Origin: Campylobacterales bacterium
Lineage (GTDB): Bacteria > Campylobacterota > Campylobacteria > Campylobacterales > QNZT01
Direction of reading: 5' to 3'
Assembly: GCA_024278835.1 (NCBI GenBank)
Contig: JAJRSK010000004.1
Location: forward strand, 1 to 32,620
DNA: 32,620 nt
Shown one piece after another: positions 3,475 to 25,750 of this stretch (positions within the stretch are counted from its first letter, which is position 1; every line of letters starts with the position of its first letter). The notes under the pieces are model-generated. The model saw only the letters and a list, made by a program, of their open reading frames with translations. It was not told where the DNA came from and searched no databases. The translations under genes and the position numbers were made by a program.

Positions 3475-4659
3475 ATGAACATCCAACTAGATACAAAAAC
3501 TTTCCTTTTTAACGCTACGAGAGATTATCTGCCTGATTATAAAATGCATACTATCATGATAGATGATGCGCTAAAGGTGAAGGATTTGCTACTTGAAGTG
3601 CAAAATCTTGAAAACTTTTTTGATTTTAGAAAGACCAATACGATGTTGCAAATCAACGGAGTTTCTGTCAAAGGTTCTCTTGGGATTGCTAAAGCGGTGG
3701 AGCTTTTTGGTACTTCGTGGACGATTGAACCTATATCAACTTTTAGGGCTACAAAAGACTTAATCATCGATGATAGTGACTTTATCGAAAAACATAAAGT
3801 GCTTGAAGAGTTTGGCGATGAAGAGGATTTTAAATACTACAAAACATTGATTCGTGAGTATTATGCCTCAGGAACTTTGGCGTATAACCAAGACTATTTT
3901 GGGGATTCTATGTTTTTATATGCGCATCATCTCATTGAGAAGTATCCAGCAAAAAAAGAGGCGATTTTGGATGCTATCGATGTGCCAAATGGCATAGGAA
4001 GCTATGAAAAAGAGTGCAATATGTACCCTTACAATGACAATATGCAGACGATTCATGCCCTTGAAGCACAACTTTTTGCGCCTGAAGTAAAAGGGTATAG
4101 CGAGGAAGCGATGGGGTATTATGATAAGGCAGAAGCGGTTTTGTGTAGTCATTTTGCTGCACAAAAGGATGAAGATTGTGCGCTTGAAACTATCCTTGAC
4201 AATATCACTTTGGAGAAGGTGGTTTCAGAAGTGAAACATCCATTTTCTGATTTTAAGGTCGCTTTTTATGCGGGAGATTTTACTTGCAAGGATGTTCCTG
4301 AGGTAAAAAAGGCAGCAAAAGAACTTTTAACTGCTATCGGAGCGAATGTAGTGGATTTTGAGTTTTCAGCGCGTGGAGATGGCTTTGATATCGTTGGGGC
4401 AGATGAAGCAGTAGCCTATAAAAAAGCAGGAAATATCATCTTTGATGCTATCGATAGTGGCGCAGAAATCTTGGTAGTAGATAGTAAAGAGACGCATTTT
4501 ATGATAGATCAAGGCAAGAAAAAGTGTGAAAAAGCTGTAGGACGTGACATCCGTGTGCCAGTACTCAATATCTCTCAGATGGTCGCCTTGGCGATAGGTA
4601 TCACAGATAGAGAGAAGCTTGGGTTAGATACGCATAAGATAGCGGTAGAGTTTATCTAA
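3475..4659 (+). CDS. HdrB C-terminal-like (DUF5644-type) protein
   Basis: 394 residues, soluble, with no signal peptide. The N-terminal ~95 residues look like a ferredoxin-like/ubiquitin-fold start (QLDTKTFLFNATRDYLPDYK...QINGVSVKG). The middle is helical. The C-terminal ~140 residues (KVAFYAGDFTCKDVPEVKKAAKELLTAIGANVVD to ILNISQMVALAIG) resemble the C-terminal part of heterodisulfide reductase subunit B: A.EIL+V.S...H.M......C........VPVLN+.Q+VA+A+G. I recall such proteins as campylobacterotal DUF5644/HdrB-C-like, linked with succinate or fumarate reductase-type complexes. The typical CCG cysteine motifs are mostly missing, so a cluster-binding role is doubtful. GAGGGG precedes the ATG. It is the first chromosomal gene after the cassette array. 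Confidence 0.55.
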   Translation: MNIQLDTKTFLFNATRDYLPDYKMHTIMIDDALKVKDLLLEVQNLENFFDFRKTNTMLQINGVSVKGSLGIAKAVELFGTSWTIEPISTFRATKDLIIDDSDFIEKHKVLEEFGDEEDFKYYKTLIREYYASGTLAYNQDYFGDSMFLYAHHLIEKYPAKKEAILDAIDVPNGIGSYEKECNMYPYNDNMQTIHALEAQLFAPEVKGYSEEAMGYYDKAEAVLCSHFAAQKDEDCALETILDNITLEKVVSEVKHPFSDFKVAFYAGDFTCKDVPEVKKAAKELLTAIGANVVDFEFSARGDGFDIVGADEAVAYKKAGNIIFDAIDSGAEILVVDSKETHFMIDQGKKKCEKAVGRDIRVPVLNISQMVALAIGITDREKLGLDTHKIAVEFI

Positions 4660-4710: not shown

Positions 4711-6009
4711 TTATTCTAAGATAACAGAGCACCCTTGCTTAGGTGTTCCCCCTGTATAAAGTGTGCGGGAAACCTCCAAGGTGTCAAGATTGACTTCGTA
4801 AAAGATGCCATTGTCTGTCGCAAAAGCATAGAAAAAGTCACCGTTTAAATCTGTAAAACTTGTGTGTGATTGCAAGATAGTGCCGTTGATGGATTCTCCA
4901 CTCACATTTAAGTCTTTAATCTTTGTGTTGGTTGTTGTGTCAACAATCGTGATAAATGTATCATGATGATTAGTAACGATAGCTAAATCTTTTTGTGGGA
5001 CAAATGTAGTATGCCCGCTACCCTTACCCGTGATGATACTCTTTTCAAGTTTCATATTTACGATATCTATGACGTGCATTTTACCCTCTGTTGAGCCCAT
5101 ATAGACATGTCTCCCGTCCGGATGAAAAGTACCGTGGTGTGAACCCATATCTTCAACATTTTCACAGCCAAATGAGACTGTTCTTGTGATACATAGAGTC
5201 TCTCCTTTAAGCTTTACTTCTGAAAGCCTCGGTGAGAGACGATCCTGTGGTGCCCCTTCTGTAACTAGGTAAAAAGTATCTTTTGGTGCATCTCCTATCA
5301 AGATACCTGTATCCATGCCATCAATACCTTTACCGATAAAGTGGTGTGCTGATGTAGGAGTGCAGAGTTTACTTAGATAAGTTACTTTCCATTTTCCTTC
5401 CTCTTTTTCAACTTTATAAAGTTCTATTTTTCTTTTTTCTCTGTCAATCAAGGCAAATATATCGGGTGTGAGCCACATAGGATGTCCCGTTGCGTTTGAG
5501 CCTCCAAAGTCCAAAGGTGTGACAAGTTCATTTCTACCAACTACTGCAACGACTTCGTCAGTTTCTACATCAATCAATGATGACATTGGTTTATCTTTAC
5601 CGCTGACTAACTGTAAGCCTAAGTATTCGTTGAAGGCACAAGAGCGTGGGCTATGTGCTAACGGTATGGTTTTAGTTATCTTCAGAGTATTGATATCTAT
5701 GACATCGATGGATTGAGAACCTCTGGTGATGGCGTATAGTTTATCTAGATTTCCTGCGCGTCCTACGGTATAGGGGGTGACGCCCGTTGTAGGTATATCT
5801 GTTGCCAACTCCATTGCTTTAACGTCGATAGCCAAGATACGGTTAAGTTGGGTGTCACCATAAAAAGCAAACAGTTTACTTTCCGTTGGAGATCTAGTAT
5901 CTAATGTTTGAATAGAATCGGTACTGAGTTGTGATGAACCACAGCCTGTGAGATACAAGATAGCCATCATGGAAATAATCGACTGTATCTTTTTTTGAAA
6001 AATGAACAT
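4711..6009 (-). CDS. Lipoprotein beta-propeller, His-rich (YncE-like)
   Basis: 432 residues from the ATG at 6009, chosen because AAGGAG lies 7-12 bases upstream; an upstream in-frame ATG at 6060 has none. The signal peptide ends in a lipobox (LTGC, Cys23). The rest is a beta-propeller of YncE/NHL-like blades (TRGSQSIDVIDINTLKITKT, STEGKMHVIDIVNMKLEKS, NTKIKDLNVSGE). Histidines recur once or twice per blade: H119, H176 (GHPMW), HH222-223, HH291-292 with H296 (SHHGTFHP), H333, HH348-349 and H382. Such a ring of His on the blade tops suggests a bound metal, as in copper-binding propellers; this is inference. It follows the Ig-like lipoprotein gene in the same direction after 55 bp and is probably co-transcribed. 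Exported, likely outer-membrane anchored. Confidence 0.65.
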   Translation of the reverse strand: MFIFQKKIQSIISMMAILYLTGCGSSQLSTDSIQTLDTRSPTESKLFAFYGDTQLNRILAIDVKAMELATDIPTTGVTPYTVGRAGNLDKLYAITRGSQSIDVIDINTLKITKTIPLAHSPRSCAFNEYLGLQLVSGKDKPMSSLIDVETDEVVAVVGRNELVTPLDFGGSNATGHPMWLTPDIFALIDREKRKIELYKVEKEEGKWKVTYLSKLCTPTSAHHFIGKGIDGMDTGILIGDAPKDTFYLVTEGAPQDRLSPRLSEVKLKGETLCITRTVSFGCENVEDMGSHHGTFHPDGRHVYMGSTEGKMHVIDIVNMKLEKSIITGKGSGHTTFVPQKDLAIVTNHHDTFITIVDTTTNTKIKDLNVSGESINGTILQSHTSFTDLNGDFFYAFATDNGIFYEVNLDTLEVSRTLYTGGTPKQGCSVILE

Positions 6010-6064: not shown

Positions 6065-7084
6065 TTAGAGGCTAGGTACGGAGATCGGGATATAAAGCTT
6101 TTTCTCTATATCTTGCAGAGATAAAGTTGCTTTGATGTAAACCTCTTGCGTCTCTCCACTAGCATTGTTATTAACAAGATTTCCATCTTCATCTACCGTC
6201 AGGTACTCTGGTTTACAAGAAACCCATGAGATAGTGACATCACCATCAGCCAATGGAAGTGTACTAGAGATATCAAGTGTACTGTTTTCTAACGTTTCTC
6301 TTGCATCTTTTACCAACTGGCAAGCTTCCTCATAACTCATCATCTTTTTTAGAGGATGGATAATCACTTTAAAATAATCAACTTTTTCTATATCACCATA
6401 TTGGAAGGTCCCCTTAACCGTTGTGCATGTTGTATACATAATCGCTTCAGGATTGACTACTTGGAATTTATTTGTTGTAGTATTTACCTCTAGTAAATCT
6501 GTATCACAAATTGTCCAAGTAATATTTGAGTCATTGTATGGTGACATATCTATCAATCCACAATCTTTGTATGGCTCTGTACTATTTAAATCAATGGTTA
6601 GTGGAAAGTGATTTCCCTGAATCATCTTGATATCTTGTGTAACCTTTTCCATAGCTGTTGTGGCTTTTGGTAAGATAGTTAGACAAAACTCTTTTGTTTT
6701 GTTGGCTTCAGCTGTTGAAGTATTTAAGTCATAATGAATAAATGCAGAAAGTTTTGCATACTGTTCGATGGTAGTATCTTCAATCATTAATGTATGACCT
6801 GTTATATTAAAGTCACCTGTATTTACAAGAGACCAGTTGATATCTGAACCACTAATACCCTCACTTGGTAAAGAATAATCTTTATTGACATACTTTGGAA
6901 GTCTTAAAGCCTCATAGTCTCTTTGAACTGCTTCTGTATTGCTTAGATTTTGCCCGATATCAGTCATCCTAAGTGACAAAGTTTCTCTCTCTTGTGTTGT
7001 TTGTAAAGTTGCGCTAGTTTCGCCACAACCTAGTAGTGTTAATGCCGCCATTGACCCGATAATAAAATGTTTATAATGTATCAT
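6065..7084 (-). CDS. Lipoprotein with atrophied Ig-like domains
   Basis: 339 residues. The signal peptide has lipobox LLGC (Cys20). Three repeats of about 90-100 residues follow. Each has a helix-like LPLP/DITL segment, then a D/N-I-x-W-S-like strand: GSDINWSLVNTGDFNITG, DSNITWTICDTDLLEVN and DVTISWVSCKPEYLTVDEDGNLV. This matches the atrophied bacterial Ig domain pattern (LP....G..I.W......+...G.+....), normally found in surface or enzyme-linked proteins. No catalytic domain is present. It heads a two-gene minus-strand unit with the His-rich propeller, so the two exported proteins may cooperate. Function unknown. Confidence 0.6.
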   Translation of the reverse strand: MIHYKHFIIGSMAALTLLGCGETSATLQTTQERETLSLRMTDIGQNLSNTEAVQRDYEALRLPKYVNKDYSLPSEGISGSDINWSLVNTGDFNITGHTLMIEDTTIEQYAKLSAFIHYDLNTSTAEANKTKEFCLTILPKATTAMEKVTQDIKMIQGNHFPLTIDLNSTEPYKDCGLIDMSPYNDSNITWTICDTDLLEVNTTTNKFQVVNPEAIMYTTCTTVKGTFQYGDIEKVDYFKVIIHPLKKMMSYEEACQLVKDARETLENSTLDISSTLPLADGDVTISWVSCKPEYLTVDEDGNLVNNNASGETQEVYIKATLSLQDIEKKLYIPISVPSL

Positions 7085-7238: not shown

Positions 7239-7261
7239 ACTTTGATAAAACAAGGATGGCT

Positions 7262-7930
7262 ATGGTGACACTAGATATATTATTACTCGAAGATGATATG
7301 ATTCTTTCAGAAATTATTGAAGAATTTCTGCTCTCTTTGGGATATAAGGTTACCCTCGCACTCAATGGTAAGGTAGCAGAAGAGTTGGCCTATGCACAAA
7401 AGTTTGATCTCTTTATCTTGGATGTGAATGTCCCCTATGTGAATGGTTTTGAATTTTTAAAGTCTTTGCGTGCGGTGAAAAATGAAACGCCCGCTATCTT
7501 TATCACTTCTCTCTCAGACCCAAAAGATATGCAAGAGGGTTTTGCTGTAGGGGCTGATGACTATATCAAAAAGCCTTTTGATTTGAGTGAGTTAGAACTA
7601 CGCATCAACAACATCAAACGCCACTTTCATCTGGATAATCACACTATCATGATAGATAAAGATATCACCCTAGATATGCAAAACCTGACTATCATGATAA
7701 AAGGAGAGAGGCACTCTTTAGCGCGTAAGGATGCGGCGGTGCTGGCGTACTTGATAGAACATCATGATAGGGTGGTTTCACTAGAGGAGTTAGGTACGAA
7801 TGTCTGGGATTATGAGAGTGCCCCAAGCGATGCTACGCTTCGAACCTATATCAAAAATATCCGAAAAATCATCGGAGAATCCTACATCAGCAATCTCAAA
7901 GGGGTCGGTTATCGTTTTAACAAAAAATGA
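7262..7930 (+). CDS. OmpR-family response regulator
   Basis: 222 residues. The receiver domain has the acidic pair EDD near the start, phosphoacceptor Asp54 in LFILDVNVP, TS in ITSL, and Lys in YIKKPF. The C-terminal winged helix is of the OmpR/PhoB type (LARKDAAVLAYLIEH...VSLEELGTNVW...TLRTYIKNIRKIIG...LKGVGYRF). ATG 7262 is preferred over 7256: the ribosome-binding site AAGGA (7252-7256) overlaps the first ATG and is correctly spaced for the second. It probably controls its own operon, including the downstream Cu/Zn permease. Two TATCATGATA copies (7645 and 7690) encode Ile-Met-Ile in the linker. Confidence 0.9.
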   Translation: MVTLDILLLEDDMILSEIIEEFLLSLGYKVTLALNGKVAEELAYAQKFDLFILDVNVPYVNGFEFLKSLRAVKNETPAIFITSLSDPKDMQEGFAVGADDYIKKPFDLSELELRINNIKRHFHLDNHTIMIDKDITLDMQNLTIMIKGERHSLARKDAAVLAYLIEHHDRVVSLEELGTNVWDYESAPSDATLRTYIKNIRKIIGESYISNLKGVGYRFNKK

Positions 7931-9068
7931 GAAAAAGACACTTTATAAATTTTTGGGACTCTATCTCATCTCCGCCTTTATACTGCTTAGTTTCATCGCG
8001 TGGTTTTTTTGGCAGATGGAGTATAACCTGCAGCGTGATTTGATTTATGCCAAGATGCGACAAAATGCTGGGGAGATTTCAGCGACTTTGACACAGGCAC
8101 ATATGCATGGAAAAAACTTAGATATCACAAGGCTAAAGGCGAAAAAAGGGTATCGTCTGGGGCTTTATGACGTAGATAAATCTCCTATCATTACAGAGAT
8201 AACGCATACTATACCTTTTGCTCAAAAGAGTTACCAAAGAGAAAATCATTTGGGTGTAGTTGATACAAGTGTTTTGGGACATATGGGTGTGGATTATGTG
8301 GTGGTAGAAGAGAGGCTCTTTAGCGCTGCTATAGGGGGTTTTACGAAAAAGGTTATCCTTGTTTTTTTGGCTCTTTTTGCGTTGATTTCTCTAGTGGGGT
8401 ATCACTTGGCGAAACTTTTTATCAAACCGATACACGCAGAGAGGGAGAAATTAAATCAATTTATCAAGGATAGTACCCATGAGTTAAACACACCTATCAC
8501 CGCACTCTTGATGAGTACCTCTTCACCCAATCTCACTTCTGAAAAAAACATCCAGCGAATCAAGCTCTCTGCCAAAAGAGTCTCTGAACTTTATGAAGAT
8601 TTGACCTATCTCTTTTTACGCGAAAAAGAGCAGCCTACTACCTTATTGGCGTTTGATGAAGTGCTTAAAGAGCAGATAGCTTACCTGCAAGCCTTTGCTG
8701 ATAAAAAATCTATCATGATAGTGCCTGATATAGAGAATTTTGATTTTTTGATGGACAAAGAGTCAGCTGTACGCCTCATCAACAACCTCATCTCCAATGC
8801 CATCAAATACTCCGAACAAAGCGATAAGATAGAGATTACTTTAAAAAATGGGAAACTCATCGTCAAGGATAGTGGTATCGGGATAGAGGAGGAGAAACTT
8901 AAAGATATTTTTGAGAGATTTTACCGTGCCACGAGTACAAGCGGGGGATTTGGCATAGGTCTGGATATGGTACGAACTATCACAAAAAATTATGCTATCA
9001 TGATAGAAGTAAAGTCAGAGTTAGGGGTGGGGACTACCTTTGTGCTGACATTTCCAAAAAAGGGGTAG
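7830..9068 (+). CDS. Sensor histidine kinase (start uncertain)
   Basis: An inner-membrane kinase. TM1 is FLGLYLISAFILLSFIAWFF. A roughly 110-residue periplasmic sensor follows, then TM2 (ILVFLALFALISLVGY). The H-box has FIKDSTHELNTPITALL, the N-box NNLISNAIKYS, the G1 box DSGIGIEEE, then FERFYRA and GGFGIGLDMV. All catalytic boxes are intact. The start is unclear: the conserved N-terminus TKNEKKTLYKFLGLYL begins at about 7919 with no ATG/GTG directly before it. ATG 7830 would overlap the response regulator by 101 bp, and TTG 7953 would cut the conserved segment. The frame has no defect. It is coupled to the regulator and ends 3 bp before the permease gene, so a metal-responsive system is likely. 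Confidence 0.85.
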   Translation: MLRFEPISKISEKSSENPTSAISKGSVIVLTKNEKKTLYKFLGLYLISAFILLSFIAWFFWQMEYNLQRDLIYAKMRQNAGEISATLTQAHMHGKNLDITRLKAKKGYRLGLYDVDKSPIITEITHTIPFAQKSYQRENHLGVVDTSVLGHMGVDYVVVEERLFSAAIGGFTKKVILVFLALFALISLVGYHLAKLFIKPIHAEREKLNQFIKDSTHELNTPITALLMSTSSPNLTSEKNIQRIKLSAKRVSELYEDLTYLFLREKEQPTTLLAFDEVLKEQIAYLQAFADKKSIMIVPDIENFDFLMDKESAVRLINNLISNAIKYSEQSDKIEITLKNGKLIVKDSGIGIEEEKLKDIFERFYRATSTSGGFGIGLDMVRTITKNYAIMIEVKSELGVGTTFVLTFPKKG

Positions 9069-9071
9069 ATT

Positions 9072-10112
9072 ATGGAACTGTTGATGGAGTTTTTCACAGC
9101 TTTGGTAGAGTTAACCTATGCGATGGCACCGTATATACTCTTTGGTCTTTTTTTCGCAGGGATATTGCATGAGTTGGTGCCAGATAGCATCGTCACGAAA
9201 CATTTGGGCAAAGAAAATATCGCTTCGGTGGTGAAGTCAACGCTTTTTGGGATTCCTCTGCCTGTCTGTTCGTGTGGGGTGATTCCTCTAGCAACAAGTA
9301 TCAAAAAGAGTGGAGCAAGTAAGGGTGCGACACTCTCCTTTCTCATCTCTACACCGATAACGGGTGTGGATTCTCTGCTGGCAACCTACGGGATGTTTGG
9401 CTGGGCATTTACCATATATCGTGCCTTGACCTCGATGATTATCGCGATTGTAGCGGGTATAGCGACCAATCTCTTTGATAAAGAAGAGGTGCTAGAAGTA
9501 GAAGAGGTAAAGAGTTGCTGCTCTTCTAGTAGTTGTTGTGATAGCGAGGTCAAAGAGAAAAAAGGTTTTTCACTCAAAGGCGCACTTCACTACGCTTTTG
9601 TCACCCTTCTTGGGGATATCGCCAAAGCGCTCTTTTGGGGATTGCTTATCGGTGCACTTATCACTATCATGATACCCCAAAACCTCAGTGAAATACTGCT
9701 TGAGTATGGATGGCTCTCTTATCTTATCGTTATCATGATAGCCGTACCCATGTATGTCTGTGCAACAGCGTCACTACCTATCGCCGCAGCATTGATGCTC
9801 TCAGGAGTGAGTGCGGGGGCGGCATTTGTCTTTCTCTCTGCTGGTCCTGCGACCAATACGGTCACTATCGGTGTCGTAAAAAAGATGCTAGGTACGCGCT
9901 CTCTTTATATCTATCTTGGCTCTATCATCATCGGAAGTATTCTCTTTGGATTGGAGCTTGATTATCTCTTTTCATTACAAGATATCGACCCTAAATCTTT
10001 AGTACAGATGAAAGAAGAAGCGGGTGTGATAGCGATAGTAAGTTCTCTCATTTTATGGGGATTTATGCTCTATTTTGTAGCTAGGGAGTATGTTGTGAAG
10101 AGGGTATCATAA
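9072..10112 (+). CDS. SO_0444-type Cu/Zn efflux permease
   Basis: 346 residues, about eight to ten membrane segments. Two permease halves of the ArsP/DUF318 type: residues 1-135 with the motif PLPVCSCGVIPLA (Cys66 and Cys68), and 165-346 with VPMYVCATASLPIAAALMLSG and FLSAGPATNTVTIG. They are joined by a cytoplasmic linker carrying CCSSSSCC (Cys149/150, 155/156), a likely metal-binding patch. The whole matches the SO_0444 family described for copper/zinc efflux. GGGG lies 8 bp before the ATG. It is third in the operon after the response regulator and kinase, which suggests metal-dependent induction. Two TATCATGATA copies lie within the gene (9665 and 9731). Confidence 0.8.
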   Translation: MELLMEFFTALVELTYAMAPYILFGLFFAGILHELVPDSIVTKHLGKENIASVVKSTLFGIPLPVCSCGVIPLATSIKKSGASKGATLSFLISTPITGVDSLLATYGMFGWAFTIYRALTSMIIAIVAGIATNLFDKEEVLEVEEVKSCCSSSSCCDSEVKEKKGFSLKGALHYAFVTLLGDIAKALFWGLLIGALITIMIPQNLSEILLEYGWLSYLIVIMIAVPMYVCATASLPIAAALMLSGVSAGAAFVFLSAGPATNTVTIGVVKKMLGTRSLYIYLGSIIIGSILFGLELDYLFSLQDIDPKSLVQMKEEAGVIAIVSSLILWGFMLYFVAREYVVKRVS

Positions 10113-10234
10113 TGGTCTCTTTTTTGCTCTCTTTAAAATTTAAGTACCCCTAAAATAAGCACATATAGTAACAAATATTTAACTTTCAACCGTAAAATGT
10201 TAATATAATGCAATTTTATCTCTTGGAGTTACTA

Positions 10235-11536
10235 ATGATTAAAAAATCACTTTTACTAGCGTCGCTTTTACTTACAGCACAAACTCTTTTTGCAGCAGGT
10301 AGTTTAAGTACTTTGAAGTATGGTTTGACATCGATTGACAATGATGATGGATTTGACTTTTCTAAGCACTCTTTTCGCGTAGATGCGATGTTTGATCAGG
10401 GGTATATCATCAAGCCTCGTGTTGGTTTGGCTTATGTCAGTATCGATGAGAGTGAGGCTGAAGGTGGCGTGAGTGGTACCTTGCAGTTTGATGTAGAAGG
10501 GGTGTATGAGGTAGAGTCGCGTTATCTTTTGACGCCTTATCTCTTTGCTGGTATGGGTTATGAGTATGTGATGGATTCACGTCCTAACTTTGATAGTCAA
10601 TTTTTTATCGATGGGGGTATGGGGCTACGTTATCCATTGCCAAATGGCATTAACCTAGTGACAGAACTAAAAGCCTTACATATGTTAAAATCTAACAGCA
10701 ATCAAGATGCAGAGTTTGCTTTTTATATCGGGGTTGGTATCCCTTTTGGTAGAACTGTAAGTCCGCAGGATAGTGATAGAGATGGGATTTATGATTATGC
10801 TGACATGTGTCCAAATTCTCCATTTGGTACGCAGGTGGATCTTAGTGGTTGTCCTGTAAAACAGACATCCCCGACGATAGATAGTGATGGTGACACTATA
10901 CCTGATAGTCTCGATGTTTGCCCAAATACGCCTATAGGTGTAGGTGTCAATGATAGGGGGTGTCCCGTAAGAACAGCGGTTCAGGCTAAATCATTTAATG
11001 GGGCTGAACCTACTATGCTTGGTGATAACATAGTAACAAGTGCACCAGTAGTAGGTGAGGTTATCGGTGAAGTAGTGAGTGAAGTACCCGTTAAAGTACC
11101 GGCTGTGACGATTGTAGATAGTGACCACGATGGTGTAAAAGATTCACTCGATCAGTGTGCAAATACACCAAAAGGCTTTACGGTAAACTCCATAGGTTGT
11201 GCCGTAAAGAAAAATCTCGATGTGCGATTTGAACCAAATTCTTTTGATGTTACACTTGCTTCAAAGTCCGCCATCAAAGCATTTGCTAAGTTTCTTAAAC
11301 GCTATCCAAATGCCAATGTCAAAATCGTAGGATATACAGATACTTCGGGCAATAGAGCGAGAAATAGACTAATTTCAGAAAAAAGAGCACAGAGAGTCAA
11401 GCAGCTTTTAGTAGGGTATGGTGTCTCTTCATCTCGTATGAGAGCTATCGGAAAAGGGGATTTGAATCCTATCGCGACAAATGATACCGCCGAAGGTAGA
11501 GAACAAAATAGAAGAGTAGAAGTGGAAATAAGGTAA
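10235..11536 (+). CDS. OmpA-family porin with TSP3 repeats
   Basis: 433 residues from ATG 10235 (TTGGAG upstream; the earlier ATG 10208 lacks one). The Sec signal peptide ends ...QTLFAAG. An eight-stranded-barrel-like N-domain covers about 20-175. Three thrombospondin type-3/calcium repeats follow: DSDRDGIYDYADMC, DSDGDTIPDSLDVC and DSDHDGVKDSLDQC, each ending in GC(P/A)V, with a Val/Pro-rich linker between the second and third. A C-terminal OmpA peptidoglycan-binding domain ends the protein (FEPNSFDVT...VKIVGYTDTSG...NRLISEKRAQRVKQLL...GKGDLNPIATN...NRRVEVEI). It anchors the outer membrane to peptidoglycan. Monocistronic, with TAATATAAT near 10200 as a probable promoter. Confidence 0.9.
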   Translation: MIKKSLLLASLLLTAQTLFAAGSLSTLKYGLTSIDNDDGFDFSKHSFRVDAMFDQGYIIKPRVGLAYVSIDESEAEGGVSGTLQFDVEGVYEVESRYLLTPYLFAGMGYEYVMDSRPNFDSQFFIDGGMGLRYPLPNGINLVTELKALHMLKSNSNQDAEFAFYIGVGIPFGRTVSPQDSDRDGIYDYADMCPNSPFGTQVDLSGCPVKQTSPTIDSDGDTIPDSLDVCPNTPIGVGVNDRGCPVRTAVQAKSFNGAEPTMLGDNIVTSAPVVGEVIGEVVSEVPVKVPAVTIVDSDHDGVKDSLDQCANTPKGFTVNSIGCAVKKNLDVRFEPNSFDVTLASKSAIKAFAKFLKRYPNANVKIVGYTDTSGNRARNRLISEKRAQRVKQLLVGYGVSSSRMRAIGKGDLNPIATNDTAEGREQNRRVEVEIR

Positions 11537-20496: not shown

Positions 20497-21252
20497 ATGA
20501 AAAGAATTATTTTGCTGGGAGTGATGTTTTTTATCGTGATAGGGTGCGAAGGAAAATCAAATGAGATAGCCAAAATACCTGAAGCTTCAGGTATATGTTT
20601 TTCACAAAAAAGCAAGACATTATTTGTGGCGCATGATGAAGGAAAAGTGTTTGAAATCGATAAAAATGGAAAGATTTTAAGAGAGCGTCGTTTAGGGAAG
20701 TATGACCTAGAAGGTGTGGCTTGTGATGATATAAAAGGAGAGCTTCTTTTTGCGGTAGAAGGCAAAGATAACATTCTTGTAGTAGGTCAAAAAAACTTGA
20801 AAATTAGAAATTACATCAATATAAAAAGAGTGTATCATGATAAGATGATTTTGAAAAAAGACCGAAAGAATAAGGGGCTAGAAGGTATCGCAATCGTAGG
20901 CGACGCTCTTTTTCTTTCAAACCAATCTGATGTATTTTTACCAAAAAAGAATCCTTCTTTACTCATCAAAGTAGAAAAAAGCAATAAGAAAAAAGTGACT
21001 ATTTCAAAGCTCTTTGAACATGGACATAAAGATATCTCAGGATTGACCTATCATGATAAGTATCTTTATATGGTAAGTGATACAGAAGATTTACTTTTAA
21101 AATATTCTTTGGATGAAAAAAAGGTTGTTTTTACGGCTAAATTGCCAGCTTTCGCACAAGAAGGCGTGGCATTTGATGATGAAGGATATATCTACTTTGC
21201 TGATGATAATGGTGCAGTTTTGAAGTATAAAAAAGAGAAGTTTGGTCTATGA
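20497..21252 (+). CDS. SdiA-regulated-like beta-propeller lipoprotein
   Basis: 251 residues with lipobox VIGC (Cys17). The blades carry the SdiA-regulated/esterase-like pattern: IPEASGICFSQKSKTLFVAHDEGKVFEID, YDLEGVACDD, NKGLEGIAIVGDALFLSNQ, ISGLTYHDKYLYMVSDTEDLLLKYSLD and AQEGVAFDDEGYIYFADDNG. The repeated E-G-(V/I)-A-x-D and the Asp-rich strands suggest calcium binding. Localised to the envelope; function unknown. Two TATCATGATA copies (20833 and 21049) encode YHDKM and YHDKY. The stop directly abuts the convergent SDR stop. Confidence 0.65.
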   Translation: MKRIILLGVMFFIVIGCEGKSNEIAKIPEASGICFSQKSKTLFVAHDEGKVFEIDKNGKILRERRLGKYDLEGVACDDIKGELLFAVEGKDNILVVGQKNLKIRNYINIKRVYHDKMILKKDRKNKGLEGIAIVGDALFLSNQSDVFLPKKNPSLLIKVEKSNKKKVTISKLFEHGHKDISGLTYHDKYLYMVSDTEDLLLKYSLDEKKVVFTAKLPAFAQEGVAFDDEGYIYFADDNGAVLKYKKEKFGL

Positions 21253-25063: not shown

Positions 25064-25750
25064 ATGATTAAAAATAGTTTACTTATAGCCTTTATAGTAC
25101 TTTTTTCAGGCTGTGGTGATAGTGTACGTGATGGTTCTCAAGGTCCTACATCAAGTTCTTATGCACGTATCAGTAGCACGGGTATGGGTAGTGAGTATGA
25201 TGCAACTATGGATGTAGAGATAGAGGCGGTTAAACGTTTTAATACAGAAGGTGTCGCTGTAGATATCGCTCTTTCAGAAGATGGGAGTATCGTCTATATC
25301 GCTAGTGGTGATGGTGGACTTGAAGTGATAGATGTGAGTAACCCAGAGTATCCACACCTCATATATAGTTATAATTTACCAGAGTATGTCAACTATGTTG
25401 AGGTAAAAGATGATGTCGTATATGTAGCATATGTCTCTGAGGGATTGCAGAGTTACTATAGTGTACATGCTTTTGATGTATATAACCCTTACAATCCGTA
25501 CTACATTGGTAGCGGGAAAAGTCAAAATGGAGTGGGACATAGTTCAGCTGTGAGTGGTGCGTACTACTATGAAGTCAATAGTGAAGGTTTAGAAATATTT
25601 AAAGATTATGATAAAGTAGGTTCATACTATCTACATGATAGTGCTTATGCCCTAGCGATTTATAATAACTACGTTTTTATTGCCAATGGCAGAGAGGGAT
25701 TAACAATCCTCAAAACCAATGTTAATGGAGTGGTAGGGCAGGTACACTAA
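25064..25750 (+). CDS. LVIVD-repeat lipoprotein
   Basis: 228 residues with lipobox FSGC (Cys17). LVIVD-type propeller repeats: AVDIALSEDGSIVYIASGDG then LEVIDVSNPEYPHLIYSY; YVEVKDDVVYVAYVSEG then VHAFDVYNPYNP; and a final AYALAIYNNYVFIANGREG. Fewer repeats than a full propeller, so it may be short or oligomeric. Surface or periplasmic, function unknown. The stop overlaps the convergent rdgB stop by 4 bp. Confidence 0.65.
   Translation: MIKNSLLIAFIVLFSGCGDSVRDGSQGPTSSSYARISSTGMGSEYDATMDVEIEAVKRFNTEGVAVDIALSEDGSIVYIASGDGGLEVIDVSNPEYPHLIYSYNLPEYVNYVEVKDDVVYVAYVSEGLQSYYSVHAFDVYNPYNPYYIGSGKSQNGVGHSSAVSGAYYYEVNSEGLEIFKDYDKVGSYYLHDSAYALAIYNNYVFIANGREGLTILKTNVNGVVGQVH

Follow-up and report, generated by a model that had tools for sequence, protein, structure and literature searches.

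Many beta-propellers serve as scaffolds; to our knowledge few hold metal by a crown of histidines, and each of these defines an unusual enzyme or carrier. Methanethiol oxidase of the SBP56 type uses copper, and the d1 domain of cd1 nitrite reductase, NirF and NirN are eight-bladed, periplasmic propellers that bind haem d1; we know of no set of seven His in the haem d1 propellers. The propeller of nitrous oxide reductase (N2OR) is seven-bladed, and its CuZ ligands, H132, H133, H181, H323, H378, H429 and H490, come from all blades except IV and include a consecutive pair on blade II (excerpt of PMC11573801). The zinc metallochaperone AztD is eight-bladed and binds zinc in its pore via His124, His167 and His218, with a separate transfer site, His99-x-x-His102-x-Asp104 (excerpt of PMC6689063). 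Thiocyanate dehydrogenase is a periplasmic copper propeller with three Cu in the central tunnel (excerpt of PMC9456337).

The protein considered here, referred to as the query, is encoded in the window (the whole stretch of 32,620 nucleotides that was analysed) of a 2.5 Mb host genome. A signal peptide is present at the N-terminus of its 432 aa product, which is predicted to be exported; a further in-frame ATG lies 51 bases upstream, but the signal peptide starts at the inner ATG, which makes the outer one the less likely start. The lipobox cysteine is missing from several relatives. The sequence has 13 His (3.0% of residues), the first of them at position 119, and no CxxCH. All of the His listed in the preliminary description of this DNA are present, and two that it missed, H301 and H312, complete the count. 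The gene and the residues discussed below are located as follows, the residue positions within the fold being those of a predicted model:

4711..6009, minus strand: seven-His propeller lipoprotein, predicted eight-bladed, 432 aa plus stop (open reading frame at these coordinates)
5941..5943, minus strand: lipobox cysteine Cys23, LTGC (sequence)
5644..5646, minus strand: invariant Arg122, start of blade 3 inner strand (alignment and model)
5482..5484, minus strand: invariant His176, start of blade 4 inner strand (alignment and model)
5440..5442, minus strand: invariant Arg190, blade 4 B-C loop (alignment and model)
5344..5346, minus strand: invariant His222, blade 5 inner strand (alignment and model)
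5257..5259, minus strand: invariant Glu251, blade 5 B-C loop (alignment and model)
5137..5139, minus strand: invariant His291, blade 6 inner strand, His-His pair (alignment and model)
5134..5136, minus strand: invariant His292, blade 6 inner strand, His-His pair (alignment and model)
5011..5013, minus strand: invariant His333, blade 7 inner strand (alignment and model)
4966..4968, minus strand: invariant His348, blade 7 B-C loop (alignment and model)
4864..4866, minus strand: invariant His382, immediately ahead of blade 8 inner strand (alignment and model)

Conservation was followed in 39 full or near-full relatives, 34 of which remain below 95% identity; members are 30–57% identical to the query and the lowest member pair is at 24%. 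The preliminary description had proposed a ring of His that conservation in homologues would support, and H176, H222, H291, H292, H333, H348 and H382 are indeed invariant in 34 of 34 members, together with W179, Q380, Y394, R122, R190 and E251. Further invariant columns of this set are D62, G158, G175, G252, P260, G330 and A343, D62 being invariant in 33 sequences and the other columns in 34. The same seven His are invariant in a 16-member alignment (A1), where they make up 7 of 24 invariant columns, and in a 20-member alignment (A3). In a 30-sequence set (<95% identity) they are 7 of 20 invariant columns, whereas the 388 residues of the core contain 13 His, an enrichment with a hypergeometric p of about 4e-7 that ignores relatedness and so serves as a rough guide. 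The remaining six His vary in this set, so that only part of the originally listed ring holds: H119 is found in 20 of 30 members, H223 in 19, H296 in 13 and H349 in 2. The counts of 39 and 34 do not include the fragment of an inverted copy at L080 (L080b), the L083 part, L012/L088 (G011, where a contig end cuts the gene), the non-member L091, or the repeat copies L015, L016 and most of L051–L071; L010, L039, L048 and L049 are partial or truncated stretches yet were retained, and L003–L006, as duplicates of L032–L034 and L038, are gone from the 34-member set. The non-member L091, a match in G817, is a generic YVTN propeller. Named relatives are mostly from Campylobacterota, with four gammaproteobacterial carriers (Methylomonas, Methyloprofundus, Thalassomonas and a Bathymodiolus symbiont). 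The family is rare, occurring in 7 of 397 sampled Campylobacterota genomes and in 1 of 398 sampled Pseudomonadota genomes, the latter being the chosen centre, and a search of plasmids found no member.

The AlphaFold2 model of the query, built from 20 input sequences, has a mean pLDDT of 87.5, a pTM of 0.84 and eight blades. Strand 423-431 at the C-terminus closes blade 1 (residues 45-73), after which come blades 2-4 (79-116, 121-158 and about 176-216) and blades 5-8 (221-279, 290-326, 331-368 and about 382-418). In this model H222, H291, H292 and H333 are among the first residues of an innermost strand, H176 and H382 stand immediately ahead of a short innermost strand, and H348 comes straight after a second strand; six of the seven thus lie at innermost-strand starts over five adjacent blades, 4-8, and blades 1-3 have none. 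The statement in the preliminary description that each blade carries one or two His accordingly fits blades 4-8 of the predicted eight and fails for blades 1-3. Propellers have their B-C loops and the beginnings of their innermost strands on one and the same face, so the seven His should ring one channel mouth on the side of blades 4-8 and, judged from this topology, should share one pocket there. The strand positions would also place them at channel-facing sites on one face of the predicted model, which speaks against the surface scatter that the preliminary description had named as refuting its idea. R122, R190 and E251 lie in the same layer of the model. A second model, of a relative about 32% identical to the query (L034:28-1533), again has eight blades (pLDDT 77.4), and its invariant His, H247, H294, H362, H363, H404, H419 and H456, repeat the layout of the query; its first 109 residues are at a pLDDT under 50 and were left unmodelled. 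In one clade (L002, L008, L009, L010, L011, L013 and L017), His also occurs at query positions 80 and 427 in 7 of 7 members, and since a strand begins at each of these positions, in blade 2 and blade 1 respectively, all blades except the third would be served in that clade.

When the predicted structure was searched with Foldseek and VIA-align, the best natural matches included the cd1 nitrite reductase d1 domain, NirF and NirN, with Z about 30-31 and an rmsd of 3.2-3.5 over about 340-350 residues; designed and eukaryotic propellers stand beside these d1-type matches, and AztD is among the top Foldseek matches. N2OR and thiocyanate dehydrogenase were absent among the matches listed by the two programs, from which no conclusion is drawn. 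At the sequence level the one model to exceed its cut-off is that of the generic YVTN repeat (42.5 bits against 27.85), and no curated family-level model in Pfam or NCBIfam covers the family, possibly because it is rare. The likeness to YncE put forward in the preliminary description goes no further than the repeats, the family model NF052280 being matched at 28.8 bits against a cut-off of 400. PF02239, the weak sequence link to the d1 domain, NirF and NirN, is touched by 16 of 16 A1 members at E up to 0.1, although the query itself, at 23.5 bits, lies below the cut-off of 25.5, and NirS and NirF profiles match the family at E about 1e-5 to 1e-8. In some of these profile alignments H291/H292, H333 or H382 is paired with a His of NirS or of NirF. 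The registers conflict, however, NirS laying its first blades on the last blades of the query and NirF, in local mode, running from the query N-terminus, and since they disagree no haem d1 ligand can be mapped; a transfer of NirS H182, R198, W498, H327 and H369 onto the query was dropped. Judged from sequence, the PF02239 and lactonase-type NosZ (L-NosZ) matches are repeat-level similarities.

A link with denitrification is suggested both beside the gene and across genomes. NnrS and a Crp-type regulator lie beside L033, a Crp-type regulator lies beside L041, and beside L038 there is a weak cNMP-binding (Crp-type) match under the Pfam cut-off. As Campylobacterota matches to TIGR04051 fall below the curated cut-off (about 400 against 515 bits), they are called NirJ-like. 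In a set of 59 relatives, 9 of 11 carriers of the propeller and 18 of 48 non-carriers have NirJ-like genes (p 0.016), and for relatives at least 90% complete the figures are 8 of 8 and 14 of 39 (p 0.001); within the GTDB family of the query the association is not significant at that completeness (7/7 against 3/6, p 0.07), nor at any completeness (8/10 against 7/12, p 0.38). In Pseudomonadota, NirJ passes the cut-off in 3 of 4 gammaproteobacterial carriers compared with 29 of 199 sampled genomes (p 0.013). All of these p values ignore phylogeny, and the carriers G434 and G435 have no NirJ at 1e-20. Carriers of the propeller hence tend to encode haem d1 biosynthesis. The association fits a protein of denitrifying habitats, and it keeps the reading as a haem d1 protein under consideration.

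The genes around the propeller in the window include a two-component system and a metal efflux permease:

6065..7084, minus strand: lipoprotein with aBig_2 domains, directly upstream of the propeller (profile search)
7256..7930, plus strand: divergently oriented response regulator (L080 has a related one near copA/copB)
7926..9068, plus strand: sensor histidine kinase (profile search)
9072..10112, plus strand: SO_0444 family Cu/Zn efflux permease (NF033936, 384.8 bits, cut-off 300)
10208..11536, plus strand: OmpA-like outer-membrane protein with TSP3 repeats (profile search)

The Cu/Zn permease noted in the preliminary description is therefore real, its score being well above the NF033936 cut-off. 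The aBig_2 lipoprotein likely shares a transcript with the propeller, and no homologue of it was found at the other loci. On the other side of the propeller lies an HdrB-like/SdhE-like protein (3475-4659; HdrB-like_C, 60.6 bits) with a weak 2Fe-2S-like stretch at its N-terminus, and the window holds two further exported propeller-type proteins at 20497-21252 and 25064-25750 (SdiA-regulated/phytase-like; LVIVD repeats).

Across 31 neighbourhoods, made up of the window and the loci of relatives (L048, L081, L083, L088 and L089 were excluded as too short, cut or duplicate), no constant partner gene was found, and the SO_0444 permease is absent from the other 30 (tblastn at 1e-6). Explicit copper genes stand near the propeller at 3 of the 31 loci, namely L080, L039 and the window. 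In L080, the copper-resistance genes copA (TIGR01480, 776.5 bits, cut-off 478.95) and copB (PF05275) adjoin the propeller, and further out lie a two-component system and an oxidase resembling CueO; the regulator and kinase of this locus are the closest to the pair in the window (39% and 33%), those of L043, L078, L084 and others being more distant. L039 has a DUF2282 bufferin-like gene (BufA2 match under cut-off) and a BufB-like MNIO, cut by the contig end, at 297.4 bits against a cut-off of 310. Bufferins chelate excess copper (abstract of PMC12452194), and the text of that paper does not contain the word 'propeller'. The neighbourhoods are thus suggestive of a copper link, and the frequency of 3 in 31 may scarcely exceed chance. 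The response regulators of the methanotrophs resemble OmpR, with scores below cut-off, and were for that reason left out of the metal context.

Several other arrangements were observed around members of the family. An inverted duplication at 4298-11144 of L080, in a 1.46 Mb genome, sets two gene sets face to face, one with a partial copA, copB and a full propeller and the other with a fragment of the propeller, another copB and a complete copA. In Hydrogenimonas-type genomes (L045 7989-10466; L050 2035-4519), three products are encoded after the propeller: a His/Gly-rich peptide of 72-74 residues that weakly matches HxsA4, a protein of about 377 residues that has no match in Pfam, and an NTP_transf_5 protein. 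The set looks like a peptide-modification cassette. One clade (L078 2072-4940; L084 8425-11293; L085 8997-10523) keeps a conserved order of response regulator (cut off in L085), kinase, small exported protein of 127-144 residues rich in Lys, Met and His, TSP3-repeat protein and propeller. At L043, one stop codon interrupts the frame of the response regulator beside the propeller (3559-4209).

The explanation we favour, tentatively and at a little under an even chance, is that the protein is an exported eight-bladed propeller whose seven His form an undescribed periplasmic redox site, probably of copper. The product would be exported to the periplasm as a lipoprotein and fold as predicted, and the seven His, with Arg122, Arg190 and Glu251, would line one channel mouth and bind metal there, in all likelihood two or more copper ions. 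The invariant Arg and Glu suggest chemistry on a small anion or an N- or S-oxide rather than metal storage alone, with electrons exchanged with a periplasmic carrier; substrate chemistry and electron exchange are the least certain steps of this proposal. Against it count the lack of a fused electron-transfer domain and of a constant partner gene, the small number of loci with copper genes, and the absence of a link between the family and NosZ. A periplasmic copper or zinc buffer or carrier resembling AztD, in which the channel-mouth His would bind several ions and pass them on or store them, is possible though not what we would expect. It draws on the blade number and pore zinc of AztD (excerpt of PMC6689063), on its place among the Foldseek matches, and on the copA and copB genes, bufferin-type genes and Cu/Zn exporter found beside the members in L080, L039 and the window. 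Against this, the transfer site of AztD has no counterpart, H-x-x-H-x-D being absent and the first His standing only at position 119, a single-ion carrier needs fewer than seven His, and the invariant Arg122, Arg190 and Glu251 would be unusual for simple storage.

A haem d1 role is improbable; the query would in that case be related to NirF, NirN or the d1 domain of NirS, and would bind haem d1 or one of its precursors, several of its His serving as axial or distal ligands. The structural matches, the PF02239 hits, the occasional pairing of His in profile alignments and the distribution of NirJ and NirJ-like genes speak for such a role, while the sub-threshold PF02239 score, the inconsistent registers, the two carriers without NirJ and the non-significant association within the query's GTDB family speak against it; seven or nine channel His would, moreover, leave little room for a macrocycle. 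A structural role for the His, or one in binding a protein or other ligand without metal, we regard as very unlikely: propellers are often scaffolds, but seven of the 20 invariant columns are His, all at strand-start or B-C-loop positions and on one face. Least probable of all is a divergent nitrous oxide reductase, related to L-NosZ and carrying a true CuZ cluster. The L-NosZ model is touched by 18 of 20 A3 members (best 2.9e-7) and the family has seven His with a His-His pair, but the query reaches 27.6 bits against the L-NosZ cut-off of 700 (NF052460), and in profile comparison with two true L-NosZ proteins His-His is not placed on His-His. The best hhalign alignment (probability 85) pairs other blades, so the two His-His pairs are not claimed to be homologous and that candidate correspondence was rejected, as was one with canonical NosZ (hhalign probability 5.3%). 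Eight blades, the missing cupredoxin CuA domain and a NosZ occurrence unlinked to the family (in 30 genomes, 5 of 10 carriers have NosZ and so do 8 of 20 non-carriers) also count against this reading. True lactonase-type L-NosZ proteins were observed in 299 sampled Pseudomonadota genomes (L072 and L073, 786 and 753 bits, cut-off 700).

No description of a seven-His propeller family was found in the literature searched. The observation of a multi-His propeller is confirmed and is stronger than the preliminary description could know, and the conservation and predicted positions of the His support, as a hypothesis, its suggestion of a new propeller that binds metal or is redox active. The haem d1 propellers share the predicted eight blades and a periplasmic location with the query, but they bind haem d1; the query has no CxxCH. 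AztD is likewise eight-bladed and exported, but works with a zinc ABC transporter and has three pore His against the seven invariant ones here; a likeness in pore His is possible, as the model would place the His of the query at the channel mouth. Thiocyanate dehydrogenase has seven blades instead of eight, and its profile match is at chance level (E 0.46). The SBP56 methanethiol oxidase is also a propeller with His-rich motifs (L090), and the query has no PF05694 match to it at E up to 0.1 and an hhalign probability of 4.3%.

A parallel can be drawn with CuZ of N2OR, which likewise has seven His including a His-His pair at the hub of a propeller, the hub position being deduced from the model in the present case. 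In this respect the comparison made in the preliminary description stands, as an analogy; the blade layout does not agree, the query having eight blades in two predicted models against seven in N2OR, with the His pair on blade 6 and the others on blades 4, 5, 7 (two) and 8. The fused cupredoxin CuA domain is also absent, as the query ends with the propeller at residue 432, and the host genome encodes a separate normal NosZ (L022, 876 residues). Because of the eight blades, the lack of CuA, the other ligand layout and this separate NosZ, the protein is not considered a nitrous oxide reductase, but it may work like a CuZ-type site. A wider proposal, doubtful but worth stating, is that the family represents a new class of multinuclear copper oxidoreductase, in which the cofactor site of an eight-bladed d1-type propeller has turned into a copper cluster with seven His (nine in one clade), convergent with CuZ; its substrate would be an oxide of nitrogen or sulfur, and its hosts denitrifiers that oxidise sulfur or methane. 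If this were so, the family, with its seven invariant His and eight blades, would add an independent example to the His-crown metal propellers already described, and the repeated evolution of propeller hubs into polynuclear copper sites would become testable.
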